Positions 8,615 through 28,498 of a stretch of 64,000 nucleotides of DNA are shown here, piece by piece; the first letter of the stretch is position 1; every line of letters begins with the position of its first letter. The position numbers and the translations under genes are program-made. The notes below the pieces were generated by a model. It saw only the letters and a list, made by a program, of their open reading frames with translations. It was not told the origin of the DNA and searched no databases. The stretch comes from Arcobacter cloacae (GTDB taxonomy: Bacteria; Campylobacterota; Campylobacteria; Campylobacterales; Arcobacteraceae): NCBI RefSeq assembly GCF_013201935.1, contig NZ_CP053833.1, positions 620,001 through 684,000 of the forward strand. The letters run 5' to 3'.

Positions 8615-9817
8615 CTATTTTTGTAATTCAGAAACAATTTTAAATGTATCATTTGCGATAACAAACTCTTCATTTGTAGGAATAACAAATATTCTTGATG
8701 CAGAACCATTTGTTGCAATATCTCTTGCTTCTCTTGATCTTCTGTTATTTTTAACAGGATCTATTACTAATCCCATTGAATCTAATCCAGCACAAACTTT
8801 TTCTCTAATTAATGCAGCATTTTCACCAATTCCACCTGTAAAACATAATGCATCAACACCATCAAGTGCAGCTACATAAGCTCCTACATATTTTTTGATG
8901 TTATAAGCAACCATATCAACTGCTAATCTACATTTATCATCACCATTTTGCATACCTTCTAAAACTTCTCTTAAATCAGAAGATTTTCCAGAAATTCCTA
9001 AGATACCAGATTTTTTATTCATAACGTCAAGAGCTTGATCAATTGTTAAATTTTCTCTACTCATCATATAAGAAATTGCACCAGCACCAACATCTCCAGC
9101 TCTTGTCCCCATCATTAAACCTTGAACAGGAGTTAATCCCATTGAAGTATCAATACATTTACCATTTAAAACAGCACTAACAGAAGAACCATTTCCTAAA
9201 TGACAAACAATAATTCTTGTATTTTGTTTTTTATCTAACATTGCTCTTGCTTCATTAGAAACAAAATAGTGAGAAGTTCCATGGAATCCGTATTTTCTTA
9301 TTCCATGTTTTGTATACATATCATGTGGTAAAGCATACATATAAGCATAATCAGGCATAGTTTGGTGGAATGCAGTGTCAAATACAGCTACATTTGGTTT
9401 ACCAGGCATTAATTGTTGACAAATTTCCATTCCCATAATATTTGCTGGATTGTGTAATGGAGCTAAAGGAATTAATTCTTTCATTTTAGCAATTACTTTA
9501 TCAGTAACCATAACAGAAGATGCAAACTCTTCTCCACCATGAACGGCTCTGTGTCCAATTGCATCAATATCATCAATAGAATTGATAACTTTTCCTTCAC
9601 TTTCTACCAATGTTTTTAAAACTAATTCAATAGCTTCTTTATGAGTTGGCATTGGAATTTCTAAAGTTAATTTTTGACCTTCACCAAATTCATGTTTTAA
9701 AATTCCATCAATTCCGATTCTTTCACAAAGACCAACAGCTAAAACTTCTTTTGTAGTTGGATTCATTAATTGATATTTTAAAGATGAGCTTCCTGCATTT
9801 AAAATGAATACTAACAT
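8615..9817 (-). CDS. ackA: Acetate kinase 1
   Basis: Interconverts acetyl phosphate plus ADP and acetate plus ATP. The 400-residue protein has the complete ASKHA fold: NAGSSSLKYQL at the N-terminus, catalytic Asp in FDTAFHQTMP, HLGNGSS, GTRAGD and FTGGIGEN near the C-terminus. It follows pta by 28 nt, giving a pta-ackA operon. That operon's promoter carries the TGCTA direct repeat shared with the symporter operons. A second acetate kinase gene follows pta on the other side at 11121. Confidence 0.97.
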   Translation of the reverse strand: MLVFILNAGSSSLKYQLMNPTTKEVLAVGLCERIGIDGILKHEFGEGQKLTLEIPMPTHKEAIELVLKTLVESEGKVINSIDDIDAIGHRAVHGGEEFASSVMVTDKVIAKMKELIPLAPLHNPANIMGMEICQQLMPGKPNVAVFDTAFHQTMPDYAYMYALPHDMYTKHGIRKYGFHGTSHYFVSNEARAMLDKKQNTRIIVCHLGNGSSVSAVLNGKCIDTSMGLTPVQGLMMGTRAGDVGAGAISYMMSRENLTIDQALDVMNKKSGILGISGKSSDLREVLEGMQNGDDKCRLAVDMVAYNIKKYVGAYVAALDGVDALCFTGGIGENAALIREKVCAGLDSMGLVIDPVKNNRRSREARDIATNGSASRIFVIPTNEEFVIANDTFKIVSELQK

Positions 9818-9845: not shown

Positions 9846-10841
9846 TTATTTGATTTGAGTTGCTGTAATTGCAACTAAGTTTGCGATATCTTCTACTGAA
9901 CAACCTCTTGATAAGTCATTAACTGGTTGATTTAATCCTTGAACGATTGGTCCATGAGCTTCAGCTCCTGCAAATCTTTGAACAAGTTTATAACCAATAT
10001 TTCCAGACTGTAAATCAGGGAATACTAAGATATTTGCTTTCCCAGCTACTTTTGAACCTGGTGCTTTTTTTGCTCCAATTGCTTCAACAATAGCAGCATC
10101 TGCTTGTAATTCTCCATCAAATGAGAAGTCAACATTTCTTTCAGTTAAGATGTCACAAGCATATTGAACTTTATCAACTAATGGATGTGCAGCACTTCCT
10201 TTTGTTGAAAATGATAACATAGCAACTCTTGGTTCTAATCCAACAACAGAACTTGCAGTTGCAGCTGTAGCACAAGCTATATCAGCTAATTGTTCTGCAT
10301 TTGGCTCTGGAATAACAGCACAGTCAGCAAATAAAATTAAACCATTGTCACCAAATTTTCCATCAGCTGTTTCCATAATAAATGCAGAAGATACTGTATT
10401 TATTCCAGGAGCTGTTTTAATAACTTGAATAGCAGCTTTTAAAACATCAGCAGTTGGAGAGTTTGAACCTGCAACTAAACCATCAGCATCACCAAGTCTT
10501 ACCATCATACAACCAAAAAATCTAGGTTCAGTAGTCATAATAGTAGTCGCTTCTTCTCTTGAAAGATTTTTACTCTTTCTTAATTCAACTAACTCATCAA
10601 TATACTTATTAATATTATCAAATTTTTTAGGGTCAACAATTGTTGCACCTTCAATATTTGCTCCACATTTAGCTGCATCAGCTTTAATAGTTTCAGCATT
10701 TCCAATTAAAACCACTTTTGCAGTTTTTTCTTCTAAAACTTGTTGTGCAGCTTTTAGAACTCTTTCATCTTCTGGCTCTGGAAGAACAATAGTTCTTAAT
10801 TGCAGTTTCGCTTTTTCTTTGATACTTTCAATTAAACCCAT
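9846..10841 (-). CDS. pta: Phosphate acetyltransferase, short form
   Basis: Interconverts acetyl-CoA and acetyl phosphate. The 331-residue protein is the catalytic PTA_PTB domain only, without the N-terminal DRTGG/P-loop regulatory region of the E. coli enzyme. Motifs include LPEPEDERVL, FFGCMMVRLGDADGLVAGS and VFPDLQSGNIGYKLVQR. First gene of the pta-ackA operon. Its upstream region has a TATAAT and a TGCTA-N6-TGCTA direct repeat in the same geometry as two of the downstream symporter operons. The set may therefore switch together between acetate production and uptake. Confidence 0.95.
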   Translation of the reverse strand: MGLIESIKEKAKLQLRTIVLPEPEDERVLKAAQQVLEEKTAKVVLIGNAETIKADAAKCGANIEGATIVDPKKFDNINKYIDELVELRKSKNLSREEATTIMTTEPRFFGCMMVRLGDADGLVAGSNSPTADVLKAAIQVIKTAPGINTVSSAFIMETADGKFGDNGLILFADCAVIPEPNAEQLADIACATAATASSVVGLEPRVAMLSFSTKGSAAHPLVDKVQYACDILTERNVDFSFDGELQADAAIVEAIGAKKAPGSKVAGKANILVFPDLQSGNIGYKLVQRFAGAEAHGPIVQGLNQPVNDLSRGCSVEDIANLVAITATQIK

Positions 10842-10879: not shown

Positions 10880-10912
10880 ATTATAATTAAGAAGCGTAGC
10901 ATTAAAATAGCA
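10880..10912 (-). promoter_or_regulatory. TGCTA direct-repeat promoter, site A (pta-ackA)
   Basis: In the coding direction this reads TTGCTATTTTAATGCTA, then 11 nt, then TATAAT. Half-sites are at 10908-10912 and 10897-10901, and the -10 is at 10880-10885. It has no -35; the repeat occupies that place. The start codon is 38 nt beyond the -10. The same layout recurs at sites B, C and D. Confidence 0.65.
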
Positions 10913-13433: not shown

Positions 13434-14054
13434 TTATTTGATTTTTACATTTGGTAAATTTTTTAATTTTATAAAAATCATTGAAGTCATTAATGCATCA
13501 TTATAAGCATCATGTTTACCTAAACTTGGTATTTCTAAATCCTGCATTATTGTATTAAATCTTAAATCAATATAACTTTGAGGAATAACATCTATTTTAT
13601 AATCATGATAAATTTCTGAAACTTCAAGAGCTTTATTTGGAAGTTTAATTCCTAGTTTAGGTTTTAAATATTTATTTATCATCGCAATATCAAATTCTAA
13701 AAAATAACCCACTAAAGTTCTATTTCCAATATATTCTAAAAATTCTTCAATTACATTATTAATATCTTCAGCATCAGCTAAATCACACTCTCTTATATGA
13801 TGAATCTTTATAGCATCTGCTTGTAATTTTGTTTTTGGTTTTACAAATTTTACAAACTTTTTACTAGAAACAATAGTATTATTTTTTATTATAACTGCAC
13901 CAATAGATACTATATCGTCAATTTTAGGGTTTAGTCCAGTTGTTTCACAATCAAAACAAACATACTCATCTTCAATTGGTTTATCGAATAAAAATGAGTA
14001 TTTTTCATCTTTTAAATTTTTTTTATTAAAGTAGTTTTTTATAGTTCTAAACAT
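13434..14054 (-). CDS. DEDDh 3'-5' exonuclease, DnaQ-like (copy 1)
   Basis: A 206-residue single-domain exonuclease of the DnaQ/epsilon family. Exo I is FDCETTGLNP (D and E ligands), Exo II includes VGYFLEFDIAMI, and Exo III is HDAYNDALMT (catalytic His and Asp). The ATG overlaps the upstream DUF294 gene by 8 nt, and the same pair recurs at 20434/21066, so the two proteins probably act together. Members of this pairing sit next to acetate-type symporters in other Proteobacteria (from memory). The substrate (DNA, RNA or a small nucleotide) is unknown. Confidence 0.85.
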   Translation of the reverse strand: MFRTIKNYFNKKNLKDEKYSFLFDKPIEDEYVCFDCETTGLNPKIDDIVSIGAVIIKNNTIVSSKKFVKFVKPKTKLQADAIKIHHIRECDLADAEDINNVIEEFLEYIGNRTLVGYFLEFDIAMINKYLKPKLGIKLPNKALEVSEIYHDYKIDVIPQSYIDLRFNTIMQDLEIPSLGKHDAYNDALMTSMIFIKLKNLPNVKIK

Positions 14055-15888
14055 AGTTCAACTTAAAATGAAATTCTAATTTTTTCTTTAATTTATTTAT
14101 AATTTTAAAAGAGTCTTTTAGTAAATCTTTTTCCATAGTATTTAAATTATTCGGATTGATATAATTATCAATCTCTTCTTTTTTATCTAATTTATCTAAA
14201 TTTGATTTCAATCTTAGATTTGTTAAAAAATTAAATGCCATAGTTAATTCTTTTGCTAATTCTTCTTCTAAAACACCTTTTTCTGATAATTTTTTTATTC
14301 TTTTTGCTGTGTTAGCATTAAATATTTTATTTTCTAAGCTTAGACTTCTAATTCCTTGAACAATTATAAAAATCCCACCTTTTTTTATATCTATCTCATT
14401 TTTGTGTTTATTATCTTTACTGTTTAAAACAAAACCATCAAAGAATCCTAATGGCACATCAAAACCTGTAATTATTTTTGCAAAATGTGAATTGAATTGT
14501 TGAGAATTTCCGCAAACATTGAATAGATATTCTTTTAATTTAGTAATTAGTTCTTTATCCCCTGAAACACAAACTGCATCATAAAAAATAGCAATATTCA
14601 TAAAGTTATCACCTGAAGGTTCATTTACCCATTTGAAAATTAAATCTTTAAAATCAGATTTTTTTCTACACCAATAAGGATTTGAAACCATTATATTTCC
14701 TGGACATCTTGGAAAACCAAAATCAACTAAAGTTTCAGTAAATATATGGGTAAACTCTTTAAGTTTTTCATCACTAATAGTGCAATCATCAGCTAAAATC
14801 AATGCATTATCTTGGTCAGTTTTAAGAATTTGTTCTCCTCTTCCTTCACTTCCCATAACAACTAAACATGATTTCTCATAAAGTTCAGCAGGTGCTAAAA
14901 TTTTATATAGTTTATCAAGTAATTTTTTGTTTAATTGATTAATTAATTTTGAGATAAACTCAATTTTTACACCTTTTGCATTTAATGATTTAATGATTTT
15001 AATAAAAGATAAAGAGGCTTCTTTTAACTCTTCTACTGTTTCTGCTTTCACTATTTGATTTGATACAGCAAAGGTGTTTGTAGCAAAAAAAGATGATAAT
15101 GATATTTGATCTAAAATACCAATTATTTCTTCATTTTCATTTCTTACAACAACCCTTTTAATACCATGTTTTGCCATCAAAAGTTGAGCATTAAATAAAA
15201 AATCATCTTCATATACAAAGATTAATCCTTTTGATGCAATTTTAATAACTTTATCATCAAAATCCATACGGTTTAAAATTACTTTTTGTCTAAAATCTGA
15301 ATCTGTAACTATATACATTTCTTGATTATTATCTTTTAATAAAACTGTTGGAACTTTCTCTTTTTTTATTATGCTTGCTGCTTCATATATTGTTTTTTCT
15401 GTATCAATAATTACTGCTTTATGTATTTTTGCATCTTTTACTTTTGCAACCATAATATTTGCCATATCTTTATTTTTTTCATGGGAAATATTATTGTTTA
15501 GCTTTTCTGAAATTGATTGAAAAAAGTAGTTTTCAAGTTCTTGATTTTCATGTAATATTTGAATAAAAAATTTTCTAGGTAAAATATAACATATAGTCTC
15601 TTCAGTTGTTACAAAAGAGTTTTTTGAGTAGTTTTCTATTAAAGATATTGAATCAAATATCTCATTTTTTGAGTATATAGATAAAACTTCATCTTCTTGT
15701 TTTTCTTGAATTAACCCTTTTAAAATAAAGAATAAAAATTCAGGAGAAGAACCTTGTGCTTGAACAATTTCATTTGCTTTATAATAAGCAATATCTAAAT
15801 TATCTATAAAATCATCAATCTGATCTGAAGTTAAATGATTAAAAGGATGAATTGATGAAATAAATGCTTTTTGTTCTAATATACTCAT
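14047..15888 (-). CDS. cNMP-binding/CBS/DUF294 nucleotidyltransferase-like protein (copy 1)
   Basis: A 613-residue putative signalling protein. Domains in order: cyclic-nucleotide-binding-like fold (about 10-125), a CBS pair (about 150-270), a DUF294 nucleotidyltransferase domain with GSEGRGEQ (346-353) and the metal-binding TDQD (357-360), and a DUF294 C-terminal domain (about 470-610). The nucleotidyltransferase motif is of the GlnD kind, so it may nucleotidylylate a partner protein. AGAGGT precedes the ATG. It follows the symporter gene at 16013 after a strong hairpin and is coupled to an exonuclease gene. The target is unknown; the small DUF485 protein or the symporter is a reasonable guess. 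Confidence 0.82.
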   Translation of the reverse strand: MSILEQKAFISSIHPFNHLTSDQIDDFIDNLDIAYYKANEIVQAQGSSPEFLFFILKGLIQEKQEDEVLSIYSKNEIFDSISLIENYSKNSFVTTEETICYILPRKFFIQILHENQELENYFFQSISEKLNNNISHEKNKDMANIMVAKVKDAKIHKAVIIDTEKTIYEAASIIKKEKVPTVLLKDNNQEMYIVTDSDFRQKVILNRMDFDDKVIKIASKGLIFVYEDDFLFNAQLLMAKHGIKRVVVRNENEEIIGILDQISLSSFFATNTFAVSNQIVKAETVEELKEASLSFIKIIKSLNAKGVKIEFISKLINQLNKKLLDKLYKILAPAELYEKSCLVVMGSEGRGEQILKTDQDNALILADDCTISDEKLKEFTHIFTETLVDFGFPRCPGNIMVSNPYWCRKKSDFKDLIFKWVNEPSGDNFMNIAIFYDAVCVSGDKELITKLKEYLFNVCGNSQQFNSHFAKIITGFDVPLGFFDGFVLNSKDNKHKNEIDIKKGGIFIIVQGIRSLSLENKIFNANTAKRIKKLSEKGVLEEELAKELTMAFNFLTNLRLKSNLDKLDKKEEIDNYINPNNLNTMEKDLLKDSFKIINKLKKKLEFHFKLNYV

Positions 15889-16012: not shown

Positions 16013-17662
16013 TTAGTGAGAAACTGCTCCAGCAGCACCAATACCAGTGTTTGCTCTAACATTTTGTGCTCTAAATAGTTCTCTTTCATGTTTTGCTCTA
16101 TCTGATGTGTCAATTTTAGAGAAGAACCAAATTGAAACGAAAGCAACAGTTACAGAGAATAGTGCAGGGTGAGCATAAGGGAAAATAGCTTTTTCATTTC
16201 CTAAAATTTCAACCCAAACATTTGGACCTAAAATAACTAATGCAACAGCAGTAATTAATCCCATAAATCCACCAATAAACGCACCTCTTGTTGTTAATCT
16301 TGACCAATAAATTGATAAGAATAAAATTGGGAAGTTTGCACTTGCTGCAATACCAAACGCTAATCCAACCATATAAGCAATGTTTTGAGATTCAAAAGCA
16401 ATACCTAAAGTTACTCCAATAACACCAACTAAAATAACAGTGATTTTTGAAATTTTTACAATTTTTTCATCACTAGCATTTGGGTTGATAACATTTGCGT
16501 AAATATCATGTGAAATTGCTGATGCACCAGCAAGTGTTAATCCTGAAACAACAGCTAAAATAGTAGCAAATGCAACAGCTGAAATAAATCCTAAGAATGC
16601 ATTTCCACCTAACATATGAGATAAGTGAACAGATGCCATATTTGAACCACCAAATAACTTACCATCTACAAAATATTGAGCACCTTCAGCAGAATTTAAA
16701 AATGCTATAGCACCAAATCCAACTACAGTAATAATAACCCAGAAATATGCTACAAATCCAGTTGCATAAACAACAGATTTTCTAGCTTCTTTTGCATTTC
16801 CAACTGTAAAAAATCTCATTAATACGTGAGGTAAACCAGCTGTTCCAAGCATTAATGCCATACCTAAAGAAATAGCAGAAATAGGGTCACTTATAAATCC
16901 TCCTGGACTTAAAATAGCTTCACCTAATGAGTGGTTTTCAACTGCTTTAACAGCTAAAGCTTCAAATGAGAAATTAAAGTGATATAAAACCATAATGGCC
17001 ATAAATGAAACACCAGAAAGTAATAAAACAGCTTTGATAATTTGTACCCAAGTAGTTGCAAGCATCCCTCCAAATGTTACATAAATAATCATTAATGCTC
17101 CAACCATAAATACAGCGTATTCATACTCCATACCAAATAAAACTTGAATTAGTTTTCCAGCTCCAACCATTTGTGCAATAAGATATAAAATTACAACAGA
17201 TAAAGAACCAAATGCAGCAAGAGTTCTAATCTCTTTTTGACCTAATCTATAAGCTGCAATATCTGCAAATGTAAATTTACCTAAGTTTCTTAATTTTTCA
17301 GCCATGAAAAAAAGAATTACAGGCCAACCAACTAGGAAAGAAACGGCATAGATAACTCCATCATAACCCTTCATATAAATAAGTCCAGATACTCCAAGAA
17401 ATGCAGCAGCAGACATATAATCACCAGCAATTGCTAAACCATTTTGAAAACCAGTTATTCCTCCACCAGCTGTATAAAAATCATTTGCTGATTTTGTTTT
17501 TCTAGCTGCCCAATAAGTAATACTCAATGTTCCAGCAATAAATATTAAGAACATGATAATTGCAGGAATATTAAGTTCTCTTTTTGTTGCTTCAAAAGTT
17601 GCATCACCTGCTGCAAATGCTGTTAAAGCTATAAGTGAGATAAGTGCTAATATTTTTAACAT
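16013..17662 (-). CDS. actP: Cation:acetate symporter, ActP-like (1)
   Basis: A sodium:solute symporter family member that probably takes up acetate or another short carboxylate. The 549-residue protein has an N-terminal signal-like hydrophobic segment and about 13 membrane helices, with [30 protein letters not shown]-type ActP motifs (only key parts quoted: FYTAGGG, GDYMSAA). [15 protein letters not shown] is also present. The ATG overlaps the stop of the DUF485 gene, as in the E. coli yjcH-actP pair. The operon promoter has the TGCTA repeat (site B). A near-identical paralog lies at 18284. Acetate is inferred from family and from pta-ackA nearby. Confidence 0.88.
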
Positions 17663-17976
17663 TATAATAAATCCTTTACATCTTTTTTAATATCGTTAGT
17701 TAAATCTTCAAACTCTGAATTTGCTTTTTTTACATATACCAAAGTTGTTAAAAAACTAAGTACTAAAATTGCTAATGCAATAGGAAATGCAATAGTAGTC
17801 ATGTTATCTCCAATTTTTGCTGCTAACAGTTCTTTGTCAAATGCAATTACTAAAATAAATGCATAAAACATAACTAATACAAAAATACCAAGCTTAATAC
17901 CTAAGCCATTTCTTTTTGAAACTAATTCTTTATATTTAGGATTAGATTCAATTCTTTCAACCAATTCGTCGTTCAT
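17662..17976 (-). CDS. yjcH: DUF485 membrane protein, YjcH-like (1)
   Basis: A small inner-membrane partner of the ActP symporter, of unclear role. I place the start at the ATG at 17976 (104 residues), which has AAGGAAG six bases upstream and matches the 105-residue paralog at 19933. An in-frame ATG at 18021 would lie almost at the predicted transcription start and has no ribosome site. [12 protein letters not shown] is conserved with the paralog, and two membrane helices lie at about 27-50 and 60-82. The stop overlaps the symporter start. Confidence 0.85.
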
Positions 17977-18030
17977 TCTGCTTCCTTTTTGATAAGATAA
18001 TAAATTTTCATTTATTACCATTTTTCATAA

Positions 18031-18062
18031 ATACTAAATTAATTAATAGCATTAAAATAGCA
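18031..18062 (-). promoter_or_regulatory. TGCTA direct-repeat promoter, site B (DUF485-ActP 1)
   Basis: Reads TTGCTATTTTAATGCTA in the coding direction, identical over 17 nt to site A. Half-sites are at 18058-18062 and 18047-18051. The -10 is weaker here: TAGTAT (18031-18036), 10 nt after the repeat. Flanking sequence differs from site A, so the repeat itself is conserved. Confidence 0.6.
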
Positions 18063-18283: not shown

Positions 18284-19933
18284 CTAGTGATCAACAGCTC
18301 CATCAGCTCCGATACCAGTTTCAGCTCTAATTTGTTGAGCTTCAAATCCACCTTTATCTTCTTCAGCTCTCGCAGATTTATCTGTAATAGAGAAGAACCA
18401 AATACCAATAAATGCTGCAAGAATTGAGAATAATGCAGGTTGTGTATATGGGAATATAGCCGTTTCAAATCCAAAAATATCAACCCATACAGTTTTACTT
18501 AATACAACTAAAAGAACAGCAGTAATAAGACCTAAGAATCCACCAATGAATGCTCCTCTTGTTGTTAGTTTAGACCAGTAAATTGATAAAATTAAGATTG
18601 GGAAGTTAGCTGATGCAGCAACTGCAAACGCTAAACCAACCATGAAAGCAATATTTTGATTTTCAAATGCAAATCCTAATAAAATAGCAACAATACCAAT
18701 AACTAAAACTGTTCTTTTTGAAACTTTCATTTCTTCTTCATCTGTAGCTTTACCTTTTCTAATAACAATTGCATATAAATCATGTGCAATAGAGTTAGAA
18801 GCAGCAAGAGTAAGTCCTGCAACAACCGCTAAGATTGTAGCAAAAGAAACAGCAGCAATAAATCCTAAGAAAATATCTCCACCAATAGCAGAAGATAAGT
18901 GAACCGCAGCCATGTTATTTCCACCGATGATATTTTTCATATCAATAACACCGTCTTTAAAGTACATAGTTGCTTCTGGACTTAATAAGAAAACAACAGC
19001 ACCTAATCCAACAATACCAATAATTAAATAGAAATATCCAATAAATCCAGTTGCCCAAACAACAGACTTTCTAGCTTCTCTTGCATTTCCAACTGTAAAG
19101 AATCTCATAAGAATGTGAGGTAACCCAGCAGTTCCAAGCATTAATGCAAGTCCTAATGATATAGCAGAAACTGGATCAGATACGAATGGACCTGGATTTA
19201 ATATAGCTTCACCTTTTGGATGCATACTAATAGCCTCAGCTGCTAAAGATATAAAAGAGAATCCATAGTGAGAAAGTACCATAAATGCAATAAATGTTAC
19301 TCCTGATAAAAGTAATACAGCTTTTATAATTTGTACCCAAGTAGTTGCAAGCATACCACCAAAAGTTACATAAACAATCATTAATGCACCAACAATAACA
19401 ACTGACCAAGCATAAGGGATATGGAATAATAATTCAATTAATTTACCAGCACCAACCATTTGAGCAATTAAATAAAAAGTTACAACTGTTAAAGAACCAA
19501 ACGCTGCAAGAATTCTTATTTTTTGTTCATCTAATCTATATGCAGCAATATCTGTAAAGTTGAATTTACCTAAGTTTCTTAATTTTTCAGCCATTAAGAA
19601 TAATATAATTGGCCAACCAACTAAAAATCCAATAGCATAAATCATACCATCAAATCCATGTAAGAAAATCATTCCTGAAATACCAAGGAATGATGCCGCA
19701 GACATATAATCTCCAGCAATTGCTAGACCATTTTGGAATCCTGAAATTCCACCACCTGCTGTATAGAAATCTGAAGCAGATTTTGTTTTACTAGCAGCCC
19801 ATTTTGTAATACCCATAGTTCCTACAATAAATATAAAGAACATAATTACAGCATTAATATTTAAAGCTTTATCACCTTCAGCAGCAAATAATGCTAATGA
19901 TGACAAACCTAATAAAGTAAATATTTTTAACAT
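18284..19933 (-). CDS. actP: Cation:acetate symporter, ActP-like (2)
   Basis: The second ActP-like sodium:solute symporter, also 549 residues and closely similar to the copy at 16013 along its whole length, including [33 protein letters not shown] and the C-terminal [12 protein letters not shown]. It forms a two-gene operon with the DUF485 gene at 19933 and, unlike the other two symporter operons, has no DUF294-exonuclease pair downstream. Two near-equal copies may differ in affinity or expression. Site C with a TATGAT -10 lies before its operon. Confidence 0.88.
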
Positions 19934-20250
19934 TATAACAGATCCTTTGCATCATTTTTAATAGCTATTTCTAAGTCTTCAAACTCGCCATTTGCTTTCA
20001 CAACATAAATCACAGTTGTGATAAAAGCAATTAAAATGATTGTAACAGCTATAGGCCACCCAAAAGTCATAACACCTTCAGCTGATAATTTTGTAGCAAA
20101 AAATTCTTTATTAAATGCAATAGTTAAAACGAAACCGTAATATATTACCAACATAAAGATTGCTAGTTTAACAGCGAAAGAATTTCTTTTTGAAACAAGT
20201 TCAGCATATTTAGGATTAGCTTTAATCCTTTTTACCAACTCTTTGTCCAT
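19933..20250 (-). CDS. yjcH: DUF485 membrane protein, YjcH-like (2)
   Basis: A 105-residue partner of the second ActP-like symporter. The N-terminus ([12 protein letters not shown]) matches the first copy, followed by two membrane helices (about 26-50 and 60-82) and a short acidic cytoplasmic tail ([20 protein letters not shown]). AAGGAG sits nine bases before the ATG. The stop codon overlaps the symporter ATG, so synthesis is coupled. The function of the family is not established, but it co-occurs with ActP. Confidence 0.85.
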
Positions 20251-20289: not shown

Positions 20290-20322
20290 ATCATAAACTA
20301 TTTAAATAGCAATAAAATAGCA
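20290..20322 (-). promoter_or_regulatory. TGCTA direct-repeat promoter, site C (DUF485-ActP 2)
   Basis: In the coding direction: ATGCTATTTTATTGCTA, 11 nt, then TATGAT (-10 at 20290-20295). Half-sites are at 20318-20322 and 20307-20311. Same spacing as sites A and D. Confidence 0.65.
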
Positions 20323-20433: not shown

Positions 20434-21066
20434 TTAACTTGTATAAAATGTTGTCTTAGCTGGTGTTAAATCTTTCAATTTTAAAAACATCATTGAAGTC
20501 ATAATAGCATCATTTAAAGCATCATGTTTACCAAGAGCTGGAATATTTAAATTCTTTAAAATAGTGTCAAATTTTAAATCAATAAATTCAAAGTCACTAG
20601 ATTTTTTTCTTGTTTTGTAATACATTGAAGATACTTCAATTGTTTCATTTGGAAGTTTTACTCCAATATATTTTTTTGTATATTTTGAAATAATAGTTAC
20701 ATCGAATTTTATATAATAACCAACAATTGGTCGCGAACCAATAAAATCAAGAAGTTTATAAATAGCCTCTTCTGGATCATGACCATTTTCTAAATCAATT
20801 GGTCTTATATGGTGGATTTTTATAGATTCAGGGTCTATTTTATTTGATGGTTTTAAAAAAATATTAAAAGTTTCACGCATTAATATTTTATTATCTTTTA
20901 TTTTTACTACACCAATTGATAAAATCTCATCTTTTTTTGGATTAAGTCCTGTTGTTTCACAATCTAAAGAAACATATTCATTTGGCAACGGCTCATCAAA
21001 TAAAAAATCATATTTTTTATTTTTTAATCTTTTTCTATTCCAGTTTTTTATAAATGATTCGAACAT
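20434..21066 (-). CDS. DEDDh 3'-5' exonuclease, DnaQ-like (copy 2)
   Basis: A 210-residue paralog of the exonuclease at 13434. Exo I is LDCETTGLNP, Exo II is VGYYIKFDVTII, and Exo III is HDALNDAIMT; all five catalytic positions are kept. NRKRLKNKKYDFLFDEPLPNEYVS at the N-terminus aligns with copy 1, so this extension is a shared feature of the subgroup and not of DnaQ itself. The start overlaps the DUF294 stop by one base. It is the last gene of the third symporter operon. Confidence 0.85.
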   Translation of the reverse strand: MFESFIKNWNRKRLKNKKYDFLFDEPLPNEYVSLDCETTGLNPKKDEILSIGVVKIKDNKILMRETFNIFLKPSNKIDPESIKIHHIRPIDLENGHDPEEAIYKLLDFIGSRPIVGYYIKFDVTIISKYTKKYIGVKLPNETIEVSSMYYKTRKKSSDFEFIDLKFDTILKNLNIPALGKHDALNDAIMTSMMFLKLKDLTPAKTTFYTS

Positions 21067-22886
21067 TATGAAATCTTATCTATTTTAAATGTATAATTTA
21101 TGAATTTTTTAAATTCAATAACTATTTTAAAAGAGTCTTTTAATAAATCCCTTTCAATTTTTCCTAAACTATGAGTATCTATCTCATTATTAATTTTTTT
21201 ACCTGCTTGAATATCTTCTAATTGAGATTTTAATCTAAGAGTGTTTACAACATCAAAAGCTTCTAGTAATTCGGCTGCTTTATTTTTTTCTATAATTTTC
21301 TTATCTTCTAAAATTTTTATTCTTTTTACTGTTGTTGTTTCTCTGATTCTTTCTCTTAAAGCTAAACTTCTAATCCCTTGAACTATTGGGAAAACAGCCG
21401 CTTTTTTTATATCTATAAAATGGGTTTTTGTCATAAAGTTTCCAATTGTTGTTGGAGTATCAAAAGCTAATGTTGCTCTTGCAAAATATGCCATAAATAC
21501 ATCTTTATCATGAAGTTTATTAAATAAATCATCTTTTAAATTTATTAATAATTCTTTATCTCCAGCAACTGCAAAAGAATCAAAAAATATCGCTAAATCC
21601 ATATAGTTTTGCATATCAGGAGCTTCAATCCATCTTCTAGTTTCACTTTTGTATTCACTTACAGTTTTACACCAAAATGGATTAGAAACCATAATATTTC
21701 CTTCACATCTTGGATAACCAAAATCTATTAAATAATCAGTAATTTGATTCATATAAGGTCTATATTGTTCAACATCTATTCCATCTTTTACAACAAGTGC
21801 ATTATCTTGGTCTGTTTTTATAATTTGTTCATTTCTTCCTTCACTTCCCATTACAATTAAACAAGCATCTTTTTGTAACTCTTTTGGTAAAACTAAATTA
21901 TAAAGTTTTTGATAGACTTTTGTGTTTAGTTGTCCTATCAAATTTGAAATATGATTTACTTTTACACCTTTTGCATGGAGACTTTTTATGATATTTAGTA
22001 AATCGTTACTTGCTCTTTTTAGATCTTCAATATTTTTTGCTTTTTTTATTTTAGAATCAACAACATAAGTATGATTTGCAAAATGAGATAGAACATCTAT
22101 TTGTTCTAAAATACCTATCATTTCACCATTACTATTTGTAACACCAACTCTTTTTATATTTTTTTTGATTAAAATAGTAAGAGCTTCAAATAAATAGTCG
22201 TCATTATTAACCGTAAGAAGCGGAAAAATTGCAATATCTTTAACCGGAATTGTTAAATCTCTTTGTTCAAGTAATACTTTAACTTTTAGTAAAGAATCAG
22301 TAATAATTCCATATCCTCCCTTAGAATTTTTTACAATAATAGTAGATGTTTTGTATTCTGTTGATTTTTGAATTGCATCTAGTAATTTAGTATCTTCTTC
22401 TACAATACAAGCTTCATGTATCAATGTATCTTCAACTTTTGCAATCATAAATGAAGAGAGTTGTGAAGTATATTCTTTATCTTTTAGAGTTTGAATTTTA
22501 TTTACTAAGTCTTTTAAAAAATAATCTTTAAATTGTTGATTTTTTTCAATCAAATTTAAAAATGCAGATTTATCTATTTCGTAACATATTAAATCTTCAT
22601 ATACTTTAAATGTATTAGTACACTTTCCATAAATCAAAGAATTAGAATCAAATGAGTCTTCATGTTGATAGTCCATTACAATTATATTTTCAGGAGAATA
22701 CTCATGTACAGTCCCTTTAATGATTATGAAAAAATGATTAGGAATTTTTTCAGGTGTAATAAGTATTGAATCTTTTGGATAATAAGCTATATCCATATGT
22801 TGAATACACATAGACATTTGACCAGGAGTTAATACCTGAAATGGATGTATATTTGAAAGAAAAGCTTCTTGGTCTTGTATACTCAT
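21066..22886 (-). CDS. cNMP-binding/CBS/DUF294 nucleotidyltransferase-like protein (copy 2)
   Basis: A 606-residue paralog of the protein at 14047 with the same order: cyclic-nucleotide-binding-like domain (about 10-125), CBS pair (about 150-270), DUF294 nucleotidyltransferase (GSEGRNEQ at 347-354, TDQD at 358-361) and the DUF294 C-terminal domain. The catalytic motif is intact in both copies. AAAGGA precedes the ATG. It follows symporter 3 after a strong hairpin. A role in sensing adenylates through CBS or cNMP domains and modifying a transport or regulatory partner is inference only. Confidence 0.82.
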   Translation of the reverse strand: MSIQDQEAFLSNIHPFQVLTPGQMSMCIQHMDIAYYPKDSILITPEKIPNHFFIIIKGTVHEYSPENIIVMDYQHEDSFDSNSLIYGKCTNTFKVYEDLICYEIDKSAFLNLIEKNQQFKDYFLKDLVNKIQTLKDKEYTSQLSSFMIAKVEDTLIHEACIVEEDTKLLDAIQKSTEYKTSTIIVKNSKGGYGIITDSLLKVKVLLEQRDLTIPVKDIAIFPLLTVNNDDYLFEALTILIKKNIKRVGVTNSNGEMIGILEQIDVLSHFANHTYVVDSKIKKAKNIEDLKRASNDLLNIIKSLHAKGVKVNHISNLIGQLNTKVYQKLYNLVLPKELQKDACLIVMGSEGRNEQIIKTDQDNALVVKDGIDVEQYRPYMNQITDYLIDFGYPRCEGNIMVSNPFWCKTVSEYKSETRRWIEAPDMQNYMDLAIFFDSFAVAGDKELLINLKDDLFNKLHDKDVFMAYFARATLAFDTPTTIGNFMTKTHFIDIKKAAVFPIVQGIRSLALRERIRETTTVKRIKILEDKKIIEKNKAAELLEAFDVVNTLRLKSQLEDIQAGKKINNEIDTHSLGKIERDLLKDSFKIVIEFKKFINYTFKIDKIS

Positions 22887-22985: not shown

Positions 22986-24881
22986 TTAGTGATCTAACGC
23001 TTCACCAGCACCAGAAGGAATTCTGATTTTCTCAACCAGCTCTTGAATATGAGCAGGAGGTGGAGGAGTCATTCTTGATACAACTATTGCAACGATTAGG
23101 TGTAATAATGTTCCTAAAGTTCCAATACCTGTTGGAGCGATTCCAAATAAGTAATCTTCTGGTTTTCCACCCATGAATACGAAGTATACAATGTATGCAA
23201 ATGTGAATATTAAACCAGTTAAAATACCAGCAATAGCACCTTCTTTATTCATTCTCTTATCAAATACCCCAAGGATAATTGTAGGGAAGAATGCAGCAGC
23301 TGCAAGACCGAATGCAAACGCAACAACTTGTGCAACGAAACCTGGAGGGTTAATTCCTAAGTAACCAGCAATTAAGATTGCAACGATAGCTGAAATTCTA
23401 GCCCACATTAACTCTGTTTTTTCATTTAATGTAGATTTTCCAGTTGTTTTATCTTTAAAGATAATTTGACCCATTAAATCGTGTGAAATAGCTGAAGCAA
23501 TTACAAGTAATAATCCAGCCGCTGTTGATAATGCTGCTGCTAAACCTCCAGCTGCAATAAACGCGATTACCCAGTTTGGTAAGTTTGCAATCTCAGGATT
23601 TGCAAGAACCATGATATCAATATCAACATATAACTCATTAGCAATTCCATTACCTTTAGCTAATTCAGCTTCATCAGCAGGTCCTTTTGCATTAGTAGTC
23701 AATTTATGACCATCTTCTGCTCTTTTATCACCATCAAATGCAGGTTTTGCACCTTTACCATCAAATGCAGGTCCAGAAGCGTATTGGATTTTTCCATCAC
23801 CATTTCTATCATTCCATGCAATTAATCCACCATTTTCCCATGTAGCAAACCATTTACCATTGTTAGCAGTACCATCAACGTGAGTAGCTTCACCATTTAC
23901 GAACGCTTTATATTCAACATTTTGTACATTTTTAATCAAGTTAACTCTTGAGAAAGAAGCAACTGAAGATATAGTTGTATACATAATTGCAATGAATATT
24001 AATGCCCAACCAGCAGAAATTCTTGCATCTTTAACAGTTGGAACTGTAAAGAATCTAACGATAACGTGTGGTAAACCAGCAGTTCCTAACATTAAGGCTG
24101 TTGTTAACATAAACATATTCCATAAGTTACCTGGTTCTGTATATGCTTTAAAACCTAAATCTAATAAAGATTGGTCAAGTGCATGTAGAAGGTAAGTTCC
24201 CTCAGGAATAACTTGAACACCTGTATTAAATGCAAAAGTAGTAGTTGCAAAAATACCTAATTGTGGTAAGAATGTATCAGTTACTTGTAATGATAAGAAA
24301 ATTGCAGGAATCATATATGCAAAAATCATAACAACATATTGAGCAACTTGAGTATAAGTAATACCTTTCATTCCTCCAAGAACTGAATAGAAGAATACAA
24401 TTGCCATACCAATGATAACACCTGTATTTACATCAACTTGTAAGAATCTTGAGAATACAATCCCAACCCCTCTCATTTGTCCAGCAACATATGTAAATGA
24501 TACGAAAATAACAGAGATAACAGCAACTAATCTAGCCGTATCAGAGTAATATCTATCACCAACGAAATCTGGAACTGTAAATTTACCAAATTTTCTTAAA
24601 TATGGAGCCAATAACATAGCAAGTAGAACGTATCCATCTGTCCATCCCATTAAGTAAGCACCACCATCACTTCCTTGGAAAGCGATAATACCAGCTAATG
24701 AAATAAATGATGCTGCTGACATCCAGTCTGCTGCAGTCGCCATACCATTTGCAACTGGATGAACTCCACCACCTGCAACGTAAAAGTCTTTAGTTGAACC
24801 AGCTTTTGCCCATAAAGCAATACCGATATAAATTGCAAAAGAAACACCTACGAATAGGTAAATTAGTGTTTGTAATTCCAT
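22986..24881 (-). CDS. Sodium:solute symporter, VC_2705-like (3)
   Basis: A third symporter, 631 residues, of the SSS subfamily that pairs with DUF4212 proteins, probably for acetate or a related carboxylate. It has DFYVAGGGVHPVANG near residue 32, ADWMSAASFI at 51-60, [16 protein letters not shown] near 266, and about 13 helices. Unlike the two ActP-like paralogs it has a roughly 110-residue hydrophilic insertion (about 312-425) between helices that includes NDRNGDGKIQ (357-366), an EF-hand-like loop. It follows its DUF4212 partner by 11 nt. Downstream genes are the DUF294-exonuclease pair. Confidence 0.87.
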   Translation of the reverse strand: MELQTLIYLFVGVSFAIYIGIALWAKAGSTKDFYVAGGGVHPVANGMATAADWMSAASFISLAGIIAFQGSDGGAYLMGWTDGYVLLAMLLAPYLRKFGKFTVPDFVGDRYYSDTARLVAVISVIFVSFTYVAGQMRGVGIVFSRFLQVDVNTGVIIGMAIVFFYSVLGGMKGITYTQVAQYVVMIFAYMIPAIFLSLQVTDTFLPQLGIFATTTFAFNTGVQVIPEGTYLLHALDQSLLDLGFKAYTEPGNLWNMFMLTTALMLGTAGLPHVIVRFFTVPTVKDARISAGWALIFIAIMYTTISSVASFSRVNLIKNVQNVEYKAFVNGEATHVDGTANNGKWFATWENGGLIAWNDRNGDGKIQYASGPAFDGKGAKPAFDGDKRAEDGHKLTTNAKGPADEAELAKGNGIANELYVDIDIMVLANPEIANLPNWVIAFIAAGGLAAALSTAAGLLLVIASAISHDLMGQIIFKDKTTGKSTLNEKTELMWARISAIVAILIAGYLGINPPGFVAQVVAFAFGLAAAAFFPTIILGVFDKRMNKEGAIAGILTGLIFTFAYIVYFVFMGGKPEDYLFGIAPTGIGTLGTLLHLIVAIVVSRMTPPPPAHIQELVEKIRIPSGAGEALDH

Positions 24882-24892
24882 TATACTACTCC

Positions 24893-25147
24893 CTATTCAT
24901 GTACACCGTATTTCTCATCAATTCCTGTCATTACTTTTACGTAAACAAAAATTAAGATAACAAATACATATATCGCACCTTGTTGTGCAAACCAGTAACC
25001 TAATTTAACACCACTAATTTCAATAGCGTTAAGTTCGTTGATAAATAAAATACCACAACCAAAAGAAACAATAAACCAAACTATTAAAAGTTTGATAATC
25101 ATAGAAATGTTTTCTTTCCAGTATGCTTGTGCTTTTTCTGGACTCAT
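24893..25147 (-). CDS. DUF4212 small membrane protein
   Basis: An 84-residue protein with two membrane helices (about 18-38 and 48-72), the small partner gene found before VC_2705-type symporters. The N-terminus AQAYWKENISMIIKLL is typical of the family. AAGGAG lies nine bases before the ATG. It plays the positional role of DUF485 in the other two symporter operons, though the sequences are different families. The function is unknown; a symporter subunit or stabiliser is likely. The promoter carries site D. Confidence 0.85.
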   Translation of the reverse strand: MSPEKAQAYWKENISMIIKLLIVWFIVSFGCGILFINELNAIEISGVKLGYWFAQQGAIYVFVILIFVYVKVMTGIDEKYGVHE

Positions 25148-25206: not shown

Positions 25207-25239
25207 ATTATAATAACTGTGGATAGCAAAAGGGTAGCA
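25207..25239 (-). promoter_or_regulatory. TGCTA direct-repeat promoter, site D (DUF4212-symporter 3)
   Basis: In the coding direction: TTGCTACCCTTTTGCTA, 11 nt, then TATAAT (-10 at 25207-25212). Half-sites are at 25235-25239 and 25224-25228. The six spacer bases differ from sites A-C while both TGCTA half-sites and the distance to the -10 are the same, which singles out the half-sites as the conserved element. Confidence 0.65.
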
Positions 25240-25286: not shown

Positions 25287-25313
25287 AAGAATAGCCAAAA
25301 TATGGCTATTCTT
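25287..25313 (-). terminator. Hairpin at the end of the response regulator gene
   Basis: A perfect 11-bp stem (25287-25297 with 25303-25313) overlaps the stop codon of the regulator gene. No T-tract follows on the minus strand. It may separate the two-component operon from the symporter 3 operon or stabilise the mRNA end. Confidence 0.5.
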
Positions 25314-25974
25314 AAACAGAGTAATATCTGTCTATTTTGTATCCAAGACCTCGAATATTTTTTATAAAATCTTCTTTTAAAGCTTTTTTTAATCTAGAAA
25401 TTTCTGCTCTTATTGTTGGATTGTCTATATTTTCACCTTCCCAAACATCAATTCTAAATCTTTCAAAATCTACAATCATATTAATATTTAAAGCTAAAAT
25501 ATGAATAATTTCAAGTTGTTTTTTTGTAAGACTTTGAGGTTCTCCATTAAAGTATAGAGTTTGCTTATCTTTTGAATACGAATAATTTTCAGAAAATCTA
25601 ATATGTGAAGTATTATTTTGCTCTTTTTTTAATATTTGATTGATTTTTATTCCTAATTCACCTAAATGAAAAGGTTTTTTTATGTATTCCCTACATCCTA
25701 AATTGTATGCTTTTGATATATCTTCTATATCTATCAAAGCTGAAATAAAAATAGTTGGTATATATATTTTTCTGCTATTTAATTCAGTTAAAATTTCAAA
25801 ACCATCTTTTGTAGGTACGTTTATATCAAGTATAAGTAAATCCAAAGTACTATCAATATTATCTAAAACTTCTTGACCATCAGAATAACTTTCAACCATA
25901 TGTCCAATATTTCTTAAATATTCACTAATTGCATTATTTAGCATCAATTCATCTTCAAGTAACAGTATTTTCAT
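25312..25974 (-). CDS. OmpR-family response regulator
   Basis: A 220-residue DNA-binding response regulator. The receiver domain (1-115) has the acidic pair ED at 7-8, phospho-acceptor Asp50 in LLILDINVP, and the conserved Lys in YIKKPF. The C-terminal winged helix (about 130-215) contains LTKKQLEIIHILA and IRAEISRLKKAL. Its start overlaps the kinase gene by 20 nt. It lies directly upstream of the symporter 3 operon, so it is the obvious candidate to bind the TGCTA direct repeats, whose 11-bp period suits OmpR-type tandem binding. That link is inference. Confidence 0.9.
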   Translation of the reverse strand: MKILLLEDELMLNNAISEYLRNIGHMVESYSDGQEVLDNIDSTLDLLILDINVPTKDGFEILTELNSRKIYIPTIFISALIDIEDISKAYNLGCREYIKKPFHLGELGIKINQILKKEQNNTSHIRFSENYSYSKDKQTLYFNGEPQSLTKKQLEIIHILALNINMIVDFERFRIDVWEGENIDNPTIRAEISRLKKALKEDFIKNIRGLGYKIDRYYSV

Positions 25975-27538
25975 TTATTTTAAACCTATAAGTAAATTTT
26001 GTCTCTTTTTCGTTTGATTGAAGATTGATTATAACTAAATTTTTATCACATATATCTTTTACTATTTTTAAGCCTAATCCAAAACCGCCTCTGGCATTAT
26101 TTTCTCTATAAAAATCATCAAAAATTCTATTTGTATCTTCTATTTTTTTAGAATTTGTAGTAACTGAAAATTCAATTTCATCATCATTTAAATAGTATAA
26201 TTCAACAATAATCATTGAATTAGAATGAGAGTATTTTATAGCATTAGAAAGATTATTATCTATGATTCTTTGTATTTCAGTAATGTTAAATTTGATATAT
26301 AAATCATCTTCAATTTTTGAATTAAATGATAAAGAATTTGATTTAGCAATTTCATCAAAAAAATCCATTCTATTTTTTAATATTTTTGCAAAATCCAAAT
26401 ACTCTTTTTCATAAATAACTCTATCTTTTTTAACAAGATATGATAAATCATCATATATATTTTGAATAATTTTTGAACCAGATTCTATATTTGTTATGTA
26501 TTTATTATTTTGTATTTTCATTTTTAATAAATCAATATTTGTTTGAATTATTGTTAAGGGTGTATTTATTTCGTGTACTGAATTTTTTATAAATTTTTTT
26601 TGTGATTCAATTAGATTTGTTAGTTCTTTTGTTTTTTCATTTACTTTATATTCTAGATTTTTATTCAAGTCTTCAAGCATATGGGTTTTTAATTTTATAT
26701 TATTCATTGCATCTGTTGCATAATTTGCAATAACTTTGAATTCACCAAATATGATTCTATTTTGATTTATTGGATCATCATTTTTTTGAGATTCTTTAAA
26801 ATATTTTCCTATCTCTTTTACATCATTTACAATCAAAATAGTTGCATTTTTATATATAAATATTGAGTATAAAACTAACATTATTGTCAAAGAAGTTATT
26901 TGTAGAGTATAATTAGAGATTTTTTCGTTGTATTCTTCCTCTTTTATTTGTACTAATTTATCTATCTCATCTAAATAAACCCCTCGACCTATTGTCCAAT
27001 TCCATCTATCGTAAGATTTAGCATAAGATATTTTATTTGTCTCTTTGTTTATTTCAGGATTCAACCATACATAATCAACATATCCTCCAAACTCTTTTTT
27101 TGAAGTTTCTATTAGTTCTTTAATTACTTTCTTACCATTAGAATCAACAACTTCAATAAAATTGTCTTGATGATTATTCTTTAATGCAGCACTTTGTATT
27201 ACTTTTCCATCAAAATTATATATAAAAATATATTCATTTGGATTTTTAGTAATCTTTAACAACTCTATTGCATCTAAAATATCTTTTTGAATTACTTCAA
27301 CAGGTTTTATATTTTTATTTTGGTTATAATAGTAGTCTATAAAATTGATAACATAATTTACATGTTCTTTTATCAAAGTTTTTTGGCTATTTGTATAATC
27401 AGTTTTGAGTGTTTTTATTTTTTCTTGTAGCTCTTCATGTGCGTTATTAATTATAATAAATGTGAAAAAAGAGATTAATAAAATTATAAATAATATACTG
27501 TAGACAATTAGGTGATACAGACTTTTTGCTTTTAACAT
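25955..27538 (-). CDS. Cache-domain sensor histidine kinase
   Basis: A 527-residue membrane sensor. Helices at about 13-32 and 210-230 bracket a periplasmic single Cache domain (about 40-200) that ends in the typical YDRWNWTIGRGVYLDEID. A linker and coiled coil (about 280-315) lead to the H-box with His322 (SVHEINTPL). The ATPase domain has the N-box DNNLSNAIKYS and a GFGLGLKIV glycine box. Cache domains of this kind often bind small carboxylates. With the overlapping regulator gene it forms a two-component pair next to acetate-type transporters, so a short-chain fatty acid signal is plausible. Confidence 0.9.
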   Translation of the reverse strand: MLKAKSLYHLIVYSILFIILLISFFTFIIINNAHEELQEKIKTLKTDYTNSQKTLIKEHVNYVINFIDYYYNQNKNIKPVEVIQKDILDAIELLKITKNPNEYIFIYNFDGKVIQSAALKNNHQDNFIEVVDSNGKKVIKELIETSKKEFGGYVDYVWLNPEINKETNKISYAKSYDRWNWTIGRGVYLDEIDKLVQIKEEEYNEKISNYTLQITSLTIMLVLYSIFIYKNATILIVNDVKEIGKYFKESQKNDDPINQNRIIFGEFKVIANYATDAMNNIKLKTHMLEDLNKNLEYKVNEKTKELTNLIESQKKFIKNSVHEINTPLTIIQTNIDLLKMKIQNNKYITNIESGSKIIQNIYDDLSYLVKKDRVIYEKEYLDFAKILKNRMDFFDEIAKSNSLSFNSKIEDDLYIKFNITEIQRIIDNNLSNAIKYSHSNSMIIVELYYLNDDEIEFSVTTNSKKIEDTNRIFDDFYRENNARGGFGLGLKIVKDICDKNLVIINLQSNEKETKFTYRFKINENTVT

Positions 27539-27613: not shown

Positions 27614-27690
27614 TGGCGCGGTTGAAGGGACTCGAACCCTCGACCTCCTGCGTGACAGGCAGGCATTCTAACCAACTAAACTACAACCGC
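27614..27690 (-). tRNA. tRNA-Asp (GTC), unit 1
   Basis: A 77-nt cloverleaf with a perfect GCGGTTG/CAACCGC acceptor stem, anticodon GTC in loop CTGTCAC, T-loop GGTTCGAGTCC, and an encoded CCA end. It is the last gene of the unit in transcription order. No clear intrinsic terminator follows. Confidence 0.96.
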
Positions 27691-27775
27691 ACTAAAAATA
27701 CTATTCATAAAATAAATAGAAGTCACGAAAATAAAATTTAAAAATCAATAGAACTCTATTTTAGATTTTTAAAAG

Positions 27776-27851
27776 TGGTGGTCGATATAAGACTCGAACT
27801 TATGACATCTACCTTGTAAGGGTAGCGCTCTACCAACTGAGCTAATCGACC
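27776..27851 (-). tRNA. tRNA-Val (TAC), unit 1
   Basis: A 76-nt cloverleaf with acceptor GGTCGAT/ATCGACC, anticodon TAC in loop CTTACAA, and encoded CCA. A stem-loop (27737-27746 with 27764-27773) lies just after its 3' end and may help processing from the Asp tRNA. Confidence 0.96.
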
Positions 27852-27870
27852 GTTTGTTGCATACTAAACT

Positions 27871-27945
27871 TGGTGACCCCTAGGGGATTCGAACCCCTGT
27901 GGCATGGATGAAAACCATGAATCCTAACCGTTAGATGAAGGGGCC
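27871..27945 (-). tRNA. tRNA-Glu (TTC), unit 1
   Basis: A 75-nt cloverleaf with anticodon TTC in loop TTTTCAT, one G-U pair in the acceptor stem, and encoded CCA. A perfect 10-bp inverted repeat (27854-27863 with 27957-27966) flanks the gene, so the precursor can extend its acceptor stem. Confidence 0.96.
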
Positions 27946-27972
27946 AAGACTATGACTATGCAACAATAAAAA

Positions 27973-28048
27973 TGGTGACCCGTGATGGATTCGAACCATC
28001 GGCCCCCTCATTAAAAGTGAGATGCTCTACCGGCTGAGCTAACGGGTC
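27973..28048 (-). tRNA. tRNA-Lys (TTT), unit 1
   Basis: A 76-nt cloverleaf with acceptor GACCCGT/ACGGGTC, anticodon TTT in loop TTTTAAT, and encoded CCA. It is the first gene of unit 1 in transcription order, 15 nt after the Asp gene of unit 2. Confidence 0.96.
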
Positions 28049-28063
28049 TTAACAATCACAAAG

Positions 28064-28140
28064 TGGCGCGGTTGAAGGGACTCGAACCCTCGACCTCCTG
28101 CGTGACAGGCAGGCATTCTAACCAACTAAACTACAACCGC
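28064..28140 (-). tRNA. tRNA-Asp (GTC), unit 2
   Basis: Identical to the Asp gene at 27614-27690: anticodon GTC, encoded CCA. Confidence 0.96.
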
Positions 28141-28225
28141 ACTAAAAATACTATTCATAAAATAAATAGAAGTCACAAAAATAAAATTTAAAAATCAATA
28201 GAACTCTATTTTAGATTTTTAAAAG

Positions 28226-28301
28226 TGGTGGTCGATATAAGACTCGAACTTATGACATCTACCTTGTAAGGGTAGCGCTCTACCAACTGAGCTAATCGAC
28301 C
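28226..28301 (-). tRNA. tRNA-Val (TAC), unit 2
   Basis: Identical to the Val gene at 27776-27851: anticodon TAC, encoded CCA, with the same downstream stem-loop. Confidence 0.96.
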
Positions 28302-28320
28302 GTTTGTTGCATACTAAACT

Positions 28321-28395
28321 TGGTGACCCCTAGGGGATTCGAACCCCTGTGGCATGGATGAAAACCATGAATCCTAACCGTTAGATGAAGGGGCC
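28321..28395 (-). tRNA. tRNA-Glu (TTC), unit 2
   Basis: Identical to the Glu gene at 27871-27945: anticodon TTC, with the same flanking 10-bp inverted repeat. Confidence 0.96.
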
Positions 28396-28422
28396 AAGAC
28401 TATGACTATGCAACAATAAAAA

Positions 28423-28498
28423 TGGTGACCCGTGATGGATTCGAACCATCGGCCCCCTCATTAAAAGTGAGATGCTCTACCGGCTGAGCTAACGGGTC
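28423..28498 (-). tRNA. tRNA-Lys (TTT), unit 2
   Basis: Identical to the Lys gene at 27973-28048. First gene of the whole eight-tRNA transcript, about 45 nt downstream of a consensus promoter. Confidence 0.96.

Follow-up and report, generated by a model that had tools for sequence, protein, structure and literature searches.

A Cache-domain kinase and an OmpR-type regulator as the probable controllers of acetate uptake and activation in Arcobacter cloacae through a tandem TGCTA repeat

A membrane histidine kinase (HK1) and an OmpR-type response regulator (RR1) encoded side by side in Arcobacter cloacae very probably turn on the uptake and use of acetate, the regulator acting by binding a TGCTA repeat in front of the genes concerned. 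The explanation as a whole, that the pair controls acetate uptake and activation through TGCTA-N6-TGCTA, has been drawn from sequence comparison and is held with high confidence. The window analysed is a stretch of 64,000 nucleotides whose source genome measures 2.81 Mb and is assembled into two contigs, and the closest named loci, judged by RR1, are those of Aliarcobacter/Arcobacter. RR1 (25312..25974, minus strand, as are HK1, sites A-D and the genes that follow these sites) has 220 amino acids with a receiver domain (PF00072, 3.4e-19) and a winged-helix Trans_reg_C domain (PF00486, 1.7e-10), both over the Pfam cut-offs, so that the OmpR type assigned to it by the first-pass annotation stands. 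HK1 (25955..27538, 527 amino acids) gives Pfam matches to dCache_2 and sCache_2 (3.9e-25 and 3.7e-24), HisKA and HATPase_c, in keeping with the Cache domain that the same annotation had read in it. On the minus strand HK1 is followed by RR1, with an overlap of 20 bases, and then by site D, a DUF4212 small membrane protein (24893..25147; PF13937), a VC_2705-family sodium/solute symporter (22986..24881; PF00474, TIGR03648 over cut-off), a cNMP-binding/CBS/DUF294 protein (21066..22886; Pfam) and an exonuclease-family protein (20434..21066; PF00929), an order which confirms that the pair lies directly upstream of the site D operon on the same strand. The interval from RR1 to site D contains an inverted repeat (about 25287-25313), and a terminator scan of it gave no terminator-like site. 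Further along are DUF485 protein C (19933..20250; PF04341) with an ActP-type cation/acetate symporter C (18284..19933; NF006903 over cut-off), DUF485 protein B (17662..18021, an open reading frame resembling C) with a second such symporter, B (16013..17662; NF006903 over cut-off), and the phosphate acetyltransferase Pta (9846..10841; TIGR00651 over cut-off) with AckA of the acetate kinase family (8615..9817; TIGR00016 over cut-off). The acetate gene region of the window holds two acetate-kinase paralogues (8615-9817 and 11121-12314) and two DUF294-exonuclease pairs (13434-15888 and 20434-22886), and upstream of HK1 there are two tandem copies of a four-tRNA block, Asp-Val-Glu-Lys (27614-28498).

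Exact copies of TGCTA-N6-TGCTA precede four of these gene groups: site D, TGCTACCCTTTTGCTA (25224..25239), the DUF4212-symporter operon; site C, TGCTATTTTATTGCTA (20307..20322), DUF485-actP C; site B, TGCTATTTTAATGCTA (18047..18062), DUF485-actP B; and site A, again TGCTATTTTAATGCTA (10897..10912), pta-ackA. All four lie on the minus strand, as do the acetate-related genes that each of them precedes. The -10 hexamer, 11 nt on, is TATAAT at sites D (25207..25212) and A (10880-10885) and TATGAT at site C (20290-20295), and at site B the hexamer in this position (AGTATT) is a poor fit. It might be supposed that such repeats are simply a product of chance in AT-rich promoters, the word being short, the bare pattern being present in 193 of 200 genomes of the class, so that its count per genome does not discriminate, and no excess being seen in the window once one mismatch is allowed (5 observed, 5.28 expected). 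This is extremely improbable in view of the four exact copies, against a mean of 0.19 and a maximum of two in 100 dinucleotide shuffles, none of which reached four, together with the fixed spacing to the -10 and the conservation of the site in 35/35 orthologous regulator loci and 29/29 small-RNA loci discussed below. The whole genome holds 11 exact copies. Two of those outside the window precede a sulfite-oxidase-type molybdoenzyme (L007, C1:692529) and the small subunit of a NiFe-hydrogenase (L010, C1:1605265), and in relatives the site likewise stands before the molybdoenzyme (L266 and L273, in G030 and G008) and the hydrogenase subunit (L259, in G122); these genes are possible further members of the regulon. 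Another copy (L009) lies about 90 bp before a gene with a chemoreceptor-type signalling domain and another (L011) about 50 bp before a gene with no Pfam match. Two were set aside for want of clear support, L002 having no correctly oriented gene nearby and L008 touching the start of a reading frame.

The arrangement of these promoters suggests how the regulator might act. Among 101 distinct exact sites a -10-like hexamer begins 11 nt past the second repeat (T77 A73 T73 A80 A56 T76 per cent) and the spacer tends to Y-N-T-T-W-W; in this profile the TGCTA columns are fixed by selection of the sites, and the informative positions are those of the spacer and flanks. The pho box, whose 11-bp direct repeats stand some 11 nt before the -10, provides a model, the repeats at PhoB-activated promoters lying over the -35 region. 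It is proposed that HK1, a membrane-bound kinase whose sensor is a Cache domain, would phosphorylate RR1, that phosphorylated RR1 would bind directly to the tandem 11-bp TGCTA-N6-TGCTA repeats over the -35, 11 nt upstream of the -10, and that transcription would then be activated in the fashion of PhoB. Binding by RR1 to repeats one helical turn apart would fit the sites, which are linked to the regulator, and activation rather than repression is suggested because the repeats would cover the -35 region as they do at PhoB-activated promoters. The predicted targets are uptake (actP and the VC_2705-type symporter) and activation (pta-ackA, and acs in relatives), with a small RNA of about 75 nt encoded outside the window as a probable addition, and the signal would be a small carboxylate, most likely acetate.

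An important consideration is whether RR1 is indeed the protein that recognises the repeat. In this genome 36 OmpR-type regulators score above the Pfam cut-off and the site occurs 11 times, and adjacency alone could therefore not identify the regulator. However, the exact site lies 9-253 bp past the end of RR1 in 35/35 orthologous loci (those fetched with at least 75% identity), as opposed to 0/29 loci of other OmpR-type regulators of this genome (29 of the 35 others over the cut-off, with 1.5 kb fetched per side) and 0/14 at homologues below 45% identity. Within the 35 loci, which share ancestry and so are not independent events, the exact site stands upstream of DUF4212 in every case, at 23 of 50 DUF485 genes (a further 14 have it with one mismatch and 13 have neither) and at two of four pta genes (one of the others with one mismatch, one without), compared with none of 124 control genes (Mqo, CinA, HK1, DUF294a, EXOa), two of which have a one-mismatch copy. 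At five of the loci (L026, L031-L033 and L035) the DUF4212-symporter pair has been swapped for one that is 31-45% identical and the site has been retained. A wider comparison was made for pta, using 30 RR1-positive genomes chosen from 69 to span genera. The exact site was found in 27/30 loci (29 genomes), starting 62-75 bp upstream, the remainder being two loci with one mismatch and one (L169) without the site, as against 0/14 exact and a single one-mismatch copy in genomes without full-length RR1; this contrast is partly one of phylogeny, because only one of the 14 Pta proteins (G257, 68%) is a close orthologue and the others are 42-52% identical. The 14 were the Pta matches obtained from 29 comparison genomes, made up of 18 of the 20 family genomes that lack full-length RR1 and 11 others.

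Could the repeats instead be bound by a different OmpR-type regulator, or by a transcription factor of unrelated type, with HK1-RR1 a mere syntenic neighbour? The number of candidate regulators leaves room for this, as do two genomes of the genus: G216, in which stop codons break the RR1 gene (L295, L229), retains site D and the small-RNA promoter, and G211, in which RR1 was not found in a 91%-complete assembly, retains the small-RNA promoter. Nevertheless, both genomes hold an RR1 paralogue of 53-55% identity, none of the other regulators sampled in A. cloacae has a site beside it, and the genome holds no second member of the RR1 sub-family, the next best regulator being 38-40% identical. Moreover RR1 homologues in other families keep an adjoining site in front of different target genes, for which simple synteny is insufficient. 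Control by another factor is accordingly considered improbable. The first-pass annotation had put forward the pair as the likely controller of the TGCTA regulon, and the linkage of site and regulator, the pta comparison and the presence of the site beside homologous regulators at acs and actP operons elsewhere all argue in its favour.

The distribution of RR1 and its relatives extends well beyond the genus. Full-length RR1 (at least 71% identity) was found in 69 of 89 family genomes, the other 20 including G216 with its broken copy. Among homologues of 48-66% identity the link with the site is kept, in many but not all cases, while the target genes differ: the regulator may be followed by the site and acs (L062, L291), by the site and DUF485-actP (L048, L187, L188) or by the site, a porin and DUF485-actP-DUF294 (L277, L278, L280, L281, the porin being OprD by Pfam in L277, the only one of the four scanned), and in L071 the order is site, acs, regulator, satP, site. 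Seventeen regulator regions, namely 15 of 20 chosen regions together with L187 and L188, had the site right after the regulator in exact form in eight cases and with one mismatch in three, leaving six with none, though this is no random sample because the 20 were chosen mostly for a known regulator homologue or actP. When all loci of 45-75% identity are taken together, a class that includes L179, L187 and L188 from a search with ActP, the site lies within 300 bp in 4/30 and within 2.5 kb in 10/30. No exact site was found beside the regulator at homologues of 68-71% (L044-L046, L072, L294); in L046 there is an exact site before acs at about 5 kb from the regulator. That search with ActP covered 32 genomes, of which 12 were chosen for holding an RR1 homologue, and nine genomes that lack an RR1 of 71% and have a homologue of 50-55% were found with exact sites before DUF485-actP. 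Paralogues of about 55% adjoin an aldehyde-dehydrogenase-type gene at eight loci (L051, L052, L054, L058-L061, L063), with an exact site before that gene at four (L054, L058, L059, L061) and an additional site before a PQQ-alcohol-dehydrogenase-type gene in L054, the Pfam identification of these genes coming from L058 and L054; such paralogues perhaps control the oxidation of alcohols or aldehydes. A recognition-helix stretch, TIRAE..R.KK.LKEDFIKNI(R/K)G, is common to RR1 and these homologues with few changes and is absent from the other regulators of the genome.

Whilst all of the window sites precede protein-coding genes, the copy at C1:374566 has no close gene on the same strand. A TATAAT lies 11 nt downstream of it and is followed by a hairpin with a fold z-score of -3.8, and the region (C1:374566-374680; L001:1501-1615) is taken to encode a putative small RNA of about 75 nt. 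Its promoter, being outside the window, was beyond the view of the first-pass annotation. A covariance model (R1), built from ten loci found by DNA search and with the site excluded, was run against the 89 family genomes and detected the small RNA in 28/28 genomes of the genus and in G266 (E <1e-6), with weak matches in three other genomes, one of which (L256) lacks the site. At each of the 29 strong loci the exact TGCTA-N6-TGCTA is present, and the hexamer 11 nt past it is TATAAT in 21 and differs from this by one base in 8; ten of the 29 are seeds whose query included the site, and for the other 19 the model excluded it. In an alignment that was fitted to the structure, 8 of the 11 pairs of the hairpin change on both sides (a value reached by 6 of 500 shuffles), 96.2% of cells pair compared with 81.2% when shuffled and the covariation score is 0.555 compared with 0.247 (0/500 in both cases), the number of pair types is not above that of shuffles (263/500), and slid versions of the hairpin pair at 40-58%. 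Around TTTTTGCGACCTT the loop hardly varies, and the CCUU in the loop UUUUUGCGACCUU could pair with ribosome-binding sites. Within the window the loop complement occurs at the level of chance (6 found and 6.5 expected with up to two mismatches), and none of the 5' regions of 57 open reading frames shares more than seven bases with the small RNA. A similar promoter and 5' part, with a hairpin that carries a different loop, occurs in L065 (3792), L203 and L204, which are possibly divergent forms. Full-length RR1 is present in 26 of the 28 genomes of the genus, the exceptions being G216 and G211, where the conserved small RNA and its site may reflect either a recent loss of RR1 or control by the paralogue of 53-55%. 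From its promoter, RR1 probably switches on the small RNA. Twelve loci gave no match in Rfam up to E 1, and no description was found among the titles and openings of abstracts of the matches listed in the open-licence literature, as distinct from subscription papers and preprints. Part of the text of one study reports a screen of the intergenic regions of Arcobacter sp. L in which several motifs were left unnamed, and the small RNA may or may not be one of these (PMC6429828).

The Cache sensor of HK1 (residues 36-200; 26939..27433) matches the solved sCache domains 2qhk, 4k08, 4exo and 5g4y. Passages of PMC5062169 describe PscD (5g4y/5g4z) as binding acetate, glycolate, propionate and pyruvate and name seven contact residues, and record acetate in 4k08 and pyruvate in 4exo. 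As far as that description goes, four of the seven are kept in HK1 (Tyr90, Tyr143, Trp145 and Lys156) and three are changed (Trp92 to Phe, His103 to Ser and Phe126 to Ile), so that the full PscD-type pocket is not present. Across 39 aligned kinases, a count that leaves out L062, the four residues are kept in 37, 39, 39 and 38 respectively and position His103 is variable. The Pfam Cache domain is absent from four of six distant kinases (present in two); those four, beside the RR1 homologues L281, L291, L283 and L280, stand in systems that keep the regulator, the site and the acetate targets, the sensor having been exchanged, and because of this we can only infer acetate as the ligand of HK1. 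It may be, then, that RR1 binds the sites but answers to a different carboxylate (propionate, pyruvate or lactate), or else to redox state or overflow metabolism, the acetate genes being part of a broader regulon, a tentative alternative of appreciable weight. It would accommodate the exchanged sensors and the variable His103, the recurrent sites before the molybdoenzyme and hydrogenase genes, and sites in G122 before lactate-permease-like and TRAP-type substrate-binding-like genes (read from sequence alone); against it, the most widely conserved targets are acs, actP and pta. Acetate is preferred as the signal.

If the explanation is correct, the Campylobacterota would possess an acetate control circuit whose regulator is defined, whose binding site can be read and whose regulon is predicted. 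In addition, a small RNA that is conserved and has no name would come under one specific regulator, so that its function could be tested directly. In a broader reading, to which we give an even chance, RR1 would belong to a Campylobacterota-wide family of C2 regulators, independent of CrbS/CrbR, in which sensors and the operons under control (acs, satP, actP, porin, alcohol or aldehyde oxidation) are exchanged around a fixed OmpR module and TGCTA direct repeat, the small RNA of the genus, with its loop UUUUUGCGACCUU, serving as a post-transcriptional arm of the acetate response.

Several known systems resemble the pair in part. PhoR/PhoB is alike in having an OmpR/PhoB-type regulator and direct repeats of 11-bp period that lie about 11 nt ahead of the -10, but RR1 scores 71.6 bits against a cut-off of 296.2 for the PhoB model TIGR02154 (NCBIfam), and the repeat and the targets are different. 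None of the terms acetate, pta, symporter and TGCTA occurs in the published text on CemR, a rival candidate as regulator, but since that text also lacks the words 'motif' and 'consensus' this says little (PMC11334517). No system of the RR1-HK1 type was found described in the open-licence literature, judged from titles and the starts of abstracts among the matches listed, subscription papers and preprints lying outside this scope. The portion seen of PMC9449129 presents BumS/BumR of Campylobacter jejuni, also of the Campylobacterota, as a two-component system that serves short-chain fatty acids; BumS works there as a phosphatase and has no transmembrane domains, whereas HK1 has a Cache sensor, the comparison being of the kinase side. 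MctS/MctR, which in the available part of PMC9100948 controls the monocarboxylate symporter mctP in Rhizobium, likewise has a Cache kinase adjoining a symporter, and residues 9-224 of HK1 match the MctS model (3.7e-28); compared on the kinase side only, HK1 nonetheless reaches 98.1 bits against the NF052443 cut-off of 700 (NCBIfam). CrbS/CrbR (MxtR/ErdR) of Vibrio and Pseudomonas also exerts two-component control over acetate uptake and activation, including actP and its DUF485 partner, and is characterised, in the sections of PMC5715377 consulted, by an SLC5-fused kinase, a LuxR-type regulator and an imperfect inverted-repeat site. The first-pass annotation had contrasted the pair with this system, and on the same partial account kinase, regulator type and site do all differ: HK1 is a Cache kinase with no SSF domain in Pfam and hence no SLC5 fusion, RR1 carries PF00486 and is not of the LuxR type, and the site is a direct repeat, so that RR1-HK1, if the explanation holds, would be an acetate circuit assembled from parts other than those of CrbS/CrbR.
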